A stretch of 64,000 nucleotides of DNA from Candidatus Methylomirabilota bacterium. Lineage in GTDB: Bacteria > Methylomirabilota > Methylomirabilia > Methylomirabilales > Methylomirabilaceae. This document shows, piece after piece, positions 31,942 to 39,346 of the stretch (the first letter of the stretch is position 1; the number at the start of each line of letters is the position of its first letter). The position numbers and the translations under genes were made by a program. Below the pieces are notes generated by a model. It was not told the origin of the DNA. It saw only the letters and a list, made by a program, of their open reading frames with translations, and did not search any database. The DNA lies in the NCBI GenBank assembly GCA_003104975.1, contig PQAM01000010.1:548577-612576 (forward strand), written 5' to 3'.

Positions 31942-31993
31942 GTGAAATCCCCCCAACGCCCCTTTTGAAAAGGGGGCGTTGGGGGGATTTCAC
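31942..31993. repeat. 52-base near-perfect palindrome between tilS and ftsH
   Basis: The sequence GTGAAATCCCCCCAACGCCC is followed by a TTTTGAAAA loop and its inverted copy ending GATTTCAC, with a single C/G count difference. It would form a very stable hairpin on either strand. Lacking a trailing T-run, it looks more like a dispersed palindromic repeat than a classical terminator, though it may stop tilS transcription. The rest of the gap (31872-32178) holds this palindrome and a promoter. Confidence 0.88.
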
Positions 31994-37997: not shown

Positions 37998-38738
37998 ATG
38001 GTTGGATTGTGTGTGAATGTCGATCACATCGCGACGATCAGGCAGGCGAGACGGGGCGAGGAGCCTGATCCGGTGCAGGCGGCGCTGATGGTCGAGTTGG
38101 CCGGCGCATCCGGAATCACCGTGCACCTGCGCGAGGACCGTCGGCATATTCAGGACCGGGATGTCGAGTTGCTTCGGCGAGTGGTGAAGACGAAGCTGAA
38201 TCTGGAGATGGCCGTGACGGAAGAGATGATCCGGATTGCCTCGGCGCTCAAGCCGGAGATGGCGACGCTCGTTCCGGAACGACGTGAAGAGTTGACGACT
38301 GAGGGAGGGTTGGACGTCCACGGGCGCATCGATGAGGTAAGCCAGGCGGTGCGCCGCCTGCGGGAGGGCGGCATCTCCGTCAGCCTTTTCATCGATCCTG
38401 AATCCCATCAGGTCTCGGCTGCAGCGCAGGCCGGCGCCGACTTTGTCGAGCTGCATACCGGATCCTATGCCGAGGCGAAAGACCCGAAGGGTCAACAGGC
38501 CGAGTTGACGCGCCTCATCCGGTCGGCGCATACGGGACGGGAGCTGGGTCTTCGCATTCATGCGGGGCACGGTCTGGACTATCGCAATATCGGATCGGTT
38601 GCGGTCATTCCCGAGGTGGAAGAGCTGAGTATCGGGCACAGTATTATCGCGAGAGCCGTTCTCGTCGGTCTGGAGCGAGCAGTACGCGAGATGCGGGCAG
38701 CCATGGAGATAAGGCAGGGTGTAGGGTGTAGGGTGTAG
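37998..38738 (+). CDS. pdxJ: Pyridoxine 5'-phosphate synthase
   Basis: PdxJ closes the pyridoxine ring in the DXP-dependent vitamin B6 pathway. Signatures are [15 protein letters not shown] at the start, [44 protein letters not shown] and HAGHGLDY. The 246-residue length fits. The last eight residues (RQGVGCRV) are encoded by AGGGT heptamers and the stop codon lies in the array. Confidence 0.96.
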
Positions 38739-38741: not shown

Positions 38742-38812
38742 GTTGGAAAAAGCTAAGGCTCTCCCCTTGTCTAGACCCTATGTCCTTTGCTTGCGCAAGG
38801 CATCGGATTCCA

Positions 38813-38941
38813 GGAATGAACACTGGTGTGCGATGCGTCGTCGATGGCAGGCACAGCACGGACAGCGCAGCCTGCCAGCGCCGATTCGAGCCGGACAGGG
38901 ACGTCCGGCGAGATTAAGCGGAGCATACTAGTGTTCATTCC
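38813..38941 (+). other. 129-base three-helix structured element upstream of acpS
   Basis: The ends pair over 19 base pairs: 38813-38831 (starting GGAATGAACACT) with 38923-38941 (ending AGTGTTCATTCC), with two G-U pairs that only form in a plus-strand transcript. Inside are two further stems: TGGCAGGC (38845-38852) with GCCTGCCA (38870-38877), and GCCGGAC (38890-38896) with GTCCGGC (38903-38909). This makes a three-way junction. It may be a structured leader RNA of acpS or a miniature inverted-repeat element. I do not recognise a known riboswitch class. Confidence 0.7.
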
Positions 38942-38962
38942 ATGGCACTCCAAGGTGCGGGA

Positions 38963-39346
38963 ATGGTGATCGGGATCGGAATTGACCTGGTTCAGATCGA
39001 TCGATTTGAGCGAGCCGTCGCGCGTTACGGCGCCCGTCTGTTGGATCGCCTGTTCACGCCGTCGGAGCGGGCACACATCAGGCGCTACCGGTCGCCGGGT
39101 CGACACCTGGCGGTCCGCTTCGCCGCGAAGGAGGCGGCGTTCAAGGCGCTTCGAACCGGATGGGGGCAGGGGGTCGTCTGGCAGGATGTAGAGGTCGTCG
39201 GGGGTGGAAACGAACCATCCGGTCTGGCCCTTTCGGGCCGCGCAAAAGACGTAGCGGATGGTCTTGGGATCATGCAGATGCTGGTCACGCTGACGCATGA
39301 GGGTGACTACGCGATGGCATGCGTCGTGGCCACGGACGGCCGATAG
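38963..39346 (+). CDS. acpS: Holo-[acyl-carrier-protein] synthase
   Basis: AcpS attaches 4'-phosphopantetheine to acyl carrier protein. The magnesium-binding GIGIDLVQIDRF and the second motif FAAKEAAFKAL are present, and the length of about 127 residues is typical. I choose the ATG at 38963, seven codons after an in-frame ATG at 38942, because GIGIDLV usually lies at the very N-terminus. The gene sits directly downstream of the structured element at 38813-38941. Confidence 0.93.
   Translation: MVIGIGIDLVQIDRFERAVARYGARLLDRLFTPSERAHIRRYRSPGRHLAVRFAAKEAAFKALRTGWGQGVVWQDVEVVGGGNEPSGLALSGRAKDVADGLGIMQMLVTLTHEGDYAMACVVATDGR

Follow-up and report, generated by a model that had tools for sequence, protein, structure and literature searches.

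A dispersed palindromic repeat with a branched fold occupies the pdxJ–acpS gap and other operon junctions in a genus of Candidatus Methylomirabilota

The window, by which we mean the whole stretch of 64,000 nucleotides that was analysed, carries on its plus strand the genes pdxJ and acpS of one operon and, in the gap between them, a strongly structured element of about 130 nt. The features of this locus are as follows.

37998–38738, + strand: pdxJ, the upstream gene of the same operon (PF03740, 339 bits)
38811–38944, + strand: whole element as delimited by cmsearch with the covariance model (147.5 bits), equal to 38813–38941 plus edge bases
38813–38831, + strand: 5' arm of the outer helix, from the fold; the family consensus includes 18 of the 19 pairs, with pairing kept though the sequence varies
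38832–38922, + strand: conserved interior, from the alignment and pairwise identities; about 90% mean identity between copies
38837–38885, + strand: first inner arm, from the consensus fold and pair counts; 14 consensus pairs, interrupted, including the 8-pair stem
38886–38913, + strand: second inner arm, from the consensus fold and pair counts; 9 consensus pairs, including the 7-pair stem
38923–38941, + strand: 3' arm of the outer helix, from the fold and family pair counts, as for the 5' arm
38963–39346, + strand: acpS from the start conserved in relatives (PF01648; gap sequences of relatives)

The outer stem, 38813–38831 with 38923–38941, consists of 19 consecutive pairs, including two G-U pairs on the plus strand, and closes a junction with both inner arms; an earlier note on this DNA had described it correctly, together with the internal stems of eight and seven pairs, both of which are present. 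The folding energy of positions 38800–38955 was -82.9 kcal/mol, compared with -51.5 ± 3.8 kcal/mol in dinucleotide shuffles (z = -8.2), and none of 200 shuffles was as good. The two arms are the sole matches to their pattern in the window at up to three mismatches, with 0.07 expected by chance. The potential start codon that had been noticed right after the element does exist, as an ATG at 38942, but this is probably not the start of acpS, judging from the gap sequences of relatives. The start shared with them (MVIG...) lies at 38963, 21 nt beyond the element, with AAGGTG directly upstream, and the element covers neither this start nor the acpS ribosome-binding site. At the other side of the gap, the 3' end of pdxJ (38716–38738) enters a short GGGTGTA tandem repeat, which apparently extends the pdxJ reading frame. 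Some 8 kb upstream of the start of the window, the contig encodes a 404-aa reverse transcriptase (G000:C10:540330-540902, L241), the best match of which is the PADLOC retron type XIII model (318 bits); no copy of the element was found within this 3.6-kb retron-type locus.

The genome containing the window harbours 14 copies of the element by sequence search and 15 by covariance model, spread over many contigs. Within the genus the element is patchily distributed, being present in 8 of 15 genomes at about 25 independent sites. No match was obtained in a covariance-model search of 80 other genomes of the phylum or in a sequence search of 85 genomes outside the genus. Rfam likewise gave no match at the gathering threshold, the best sub-threshold matches being far below the cut-off, and a search of the available literature found no paper describing such a repeat in Methylomirabilis/NC10. 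Scanning all genome contigs with the pattern of one stem arm returned 41 scattered matches in unrelated taxa, taken as chance, and viral contigs yielded one match to the arm pattern and none to the core pattern. Pairwise comparison revealed no two near-identical copies, and so no indication that the element has moved recently. The window copy is among the most diverged of the family, with its nearest relative being 81.5% identical.

The copies outside the window occupy unrelated operons; hosts of the family include his, pan, suc, acpS and others. In every other genome of the genus where the pdxJ–acpS gap is readable, it lacks the element; the empty hisB–hisH gaps measure 1–7 bp in seven genomes, and the empty panB–panC gaps 2–3 bp in two. 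In the preceding gap of this operon, between glmM and pdxJ, genome G006 carries an antisense copy (G006:C1:1321335-1321468, L119) that is missing from the 93%-identical genome G010, and the pdxJ–acpS gap of G006 is empty. Gene order is unchanged at the insertion sites, where the element alone was inserted, and in three cases (hisC, a maf-like gene and one more) the reading frame upstream now terminates within the element or at its boundary. These sequence comparisons, through the empty sites in relatives, show that the element was inserted at gene junctions that had previously lacked it. Another palindromic repeat, AAATCCCC...CCCCTTT...AAAGGGG...GGGGATTT, is located at 31945–31990 of the window, and this second repeat fills the pdxJ–acpS, hisC–hisB and panB–panC gaps of relatives, the first of these being the gap that holds the three-helix element in the window.

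Among the options raised earlier, a miniature mobile element with inverted ends comes closest to these results, given the 15 dispersed copies and the empty sites; its target-duplication part is not demonstrable, as the flanks at the sites compared are too diverged for any duplication to be defined. A search for a transposase or an autonomous partner identified no mobiliser. Mobilisation by an IS200/IS605 or RAYT enzyme was considered and rejected, as the genome containing the window has no Y1 transposase (PF01797), the Y1-rich genome G013 lacks the element, and the two do not co-occur in the genus.

Conservation is distributed unevenly along the element. The inner part of about 95 nt has a mean identity of about 90% between copies, versus an average of 65% in the outer 18-bp helix. 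Conservation is lowest at the termini, which sets the element apart from the inverted repeats that transposases typically recognise. Pairing is nevertheless retained: 95.7% of cells in the family alignment are paired, compared with 29–51% in slid controls. Double changes occur at 21 pairs, 15 of which belong to the outer helix (15 of its 18 pairs), and amount to 79 cells versus 22 in shuffles, with none of 500 shuffles as good; the check for compensatory changes with a covariance model, proposed in the earlier note, came out positive. The alignment shows that the folded shape is preserved by evolution even where the sequence differs. Unpaired bases of the interior are conserved as well. Upstream (5') of the outer helix, no sequence is conserved across copies, including anything that could serve as a promoter, while a weak conserved tail, ATGAACC, follows the helix on its 3' side. 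In genome G008 (L110), about 20 nt of the outer stem have been deleted, apparently between two short direct repeats, whereas the near-identical G014 (L108) retains them.

The two strands of the element are not equivalent. Its own strand contains 118 G-U versus 23 A-C oppositions, the corresponding shuffle values being 144 and 51; A-C is therefore depleted about twofold beyond composition, and composition accounts for part of the raw G-U excess. In 29 of 30 copies the element strand has the more stable computed fold, the mean difference from the complement being 12.4 kcal/mol. Together, covariation and tolerance of G-U pairs show one folded strand to be under constraint. In a DNA cruciform the two strands would be equivalent; what is constrained is therefore more likely single-stranded, as either RNA or DNA.

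Nearly all of the approximately 25 independent sites lie between co-directional genes, mostly 6–45 nt past the upstream stop codon; the gene calls at these loci come from a codon-usage script and are approximate. Among the 24 sites counted (two further ones were omitted as ambiguous), 20 carry the folded strand in antisense to the upstream gene and 4 carry it in sense (p = 0.0015). The sense sites are pdxJ–acpS in the window, panB–panC, an SCO1-like gene (read by eye) and one more. Replication strand was rejected as the cause of this bias, since G006 has two antisense copies that are separated by 20 kb and lie on opposite strands. Orientation tracks transcription rather than replication.

At least five sites are common to different species. 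Copies at these shared sites are 86–94% identical in the core and 81–89% in the outer helices, with several stem pairs altered on both sides. By comparison, identity at fourfold-degenerate positions in the neighbouring genes is only 53–72%. Neighbouring intergenic bases also align at several shared sites, which supports vertical descent. The hisB–hisH copies of G000 (the genome containing the window) and G004 may, by contrast, represent independent insertions, as the gap is empty in G009, a sister of G004. Gene conversion was rejected as the reason for the conserved cores, the identity of copies within genomes (79–82%) being not above that between genomes (80%). Mobile debris should decay, yet the shared-site copies are conserved, and mobility alone therefore does not explain the family.

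The serious alternative to a once-mobile repeat is a dispersed family of structured non-coding RNAs, produced from the element strand mostly antisense at operon junctions, copied around the genome and retained for their RNA function. The earlier note had also raised an RNA, and part of that idea stands: compensatory changes and G-U tolerance fall on one strand whatever the direction of the operon, unpaired interior bases are conserved, and conservation continues at shared sites after insertion. At 20 of 24 sites, however, this strand runs antisense to the gene upstream, no conserved candidate promoter precedes the element, Rfam offers no match, and many genomes of the genus live without it, so that we regard a non-coding RNA family as unlikely.

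Rather improbable is a role like that reported for ERIC and REP, in which selection would act on the transcripts of the host operons and the hairpin would govern mRNA processing or stability. The element's position, shortly after a stop codon and ahead of the next co-transcribed gene, would suit this role, for which ERIC in Yersinia provides a precedent (PMC2229807), but at 20 of 24 sites the mRNA carries the complement, which folds less well and would have A-C mismatches in place of G-U pairs, and most relatives do not share the sites. A conserved cis-acting leader or riboswitch for acpS and the downstream genes, one of the options in the earlier note and suggested by the sense orientation directly before acpS, is very hard to reconcile with the empty gap in all readable relatives, the same element in unrelated operons, the uncovered start region and the absence of an Rfam family. 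Hardly any credence can be given to an attC-like integron recombination site left singly behind genes: the folded antisense strand right after stop codons, with structure in part conserved more than sequence, recalls attC, and the genome containing the window has an integron-integrase gene, but the edge consensus contains no RYYYAAC (R'') or GTTRRRY (R') boxes, cassette arrays are lacking, the conserved interior and variable ends are the reverse of attC, the genome's own attC-like site has boxes and looks quite different, and the element alone was inserted without a change of gene order. The integrase gene is split over two frames (G000:C10:180-1123, in L238; 224 and 209 bits to TIGR02249), with further fragments on the same contig, which also carries the canonical attC-like site, GCCTAAC...GTTAGAC, at C10:513222-513309 (L240:7223-7310).

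Our best reading places the family with ERIC, REP and CIR, as a palindromic repeat that was once mobile and non-autonomous, with a fold that is unusually large, branched and maintained after insertion. The window element is one copy of these genus-specific repeats of about 130 nt, which were probably inserted non-autonomously where neighbouring genes of an operon are separated by very short gaps. What counted in the spread of this repeat, and probably also in its maintenance, would be the element's own strand in a single-stranded state (RNA or single-stranded DNA), folded as a three-way junction, the conserved interior of which could be recognised by a trans-acting protein. Inside an operon, the element may act as a structured spacer. 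Antisense copies could prevail because the mRNA then receives the fold that is weaker by about 12 kcal/mol. The window copy is a lineage-specific sense insertion; the mRNA would carry its strong fold in the stretch from pdxJ to acpS, with the acpS ribosome-binding site left uncovered. A more far-reaching and less likely reading is that these copies constitute a mobile structured RNA (or single-stranded DNA) family which, after antisense insertion at operon junctions, has persisted because selection acts on the folded strand of the element itself, forming a dispersed, mostly antisense-encoded class with a three-way-junction core.

Among known repeats, ERIC (IRU/RU-1) of enterobacteria is a palindromic, non-autonomous repeat of about 127 bp that is intergenic and co-transcribed, has conserved terminal repeats and a TA target duplication as hallmarks, and in Yersinia affects the stability of the upstream transcript, with orientation being important (PMC2229807). 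The three-helix element resembles it in length, palindromic and non-autonomous nature, and intergenic co-transcribed positions, but differs in sequence and host, its ends vary while still pairing, and a TA duplication was not observed. REP elements, including GTAG- and CGTC-tagged palindromes, occur mostly between unidirectional genes near the 3' end of the upstream gene, and GTAG REPs are recognised as single strands by RAYT (PMC3733652). The three-helix element shares this location; however, REPs are simple hairpins of 20–40 bp, while it comprises about 130 nt, is branched and has no GTAG or CGTC tag at its edge. Hairpins of the form GTAG-GGGCGC...GCGCCC, like GTAG-tagged REPs, do adjoin stop codons in the genomes studied (L095, L108, L109), some of them supplying the TAG stop, and one GTAG-type hairpin is nested in a diverged three-helix copy (L099, G000:C10:343621-343771). 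In CIR, an intergenic repeat of Caulobacter and Brucella, the 5' and 3' ends pair into a stem (PMC2229807); that lineage is unrelated, and the outer stem of the three-helix element covaries strongly.

The small repeats of bacteria are commonly regarded as mobile debris. In this family, individual copies can be traced across species, with empty sites serving as controls, and the strand-specific compensatory upkeep of a large branched fold and the antisense bias in core operons open two questions to test: whether repeats of this type have been retained for a function, and which strand carries it. What sets this family apart from ERIC, REP and CIR is its large branched fold, its variable ends with kept pairing, its strand specificity, its antisense bias and its conservation after insertion.
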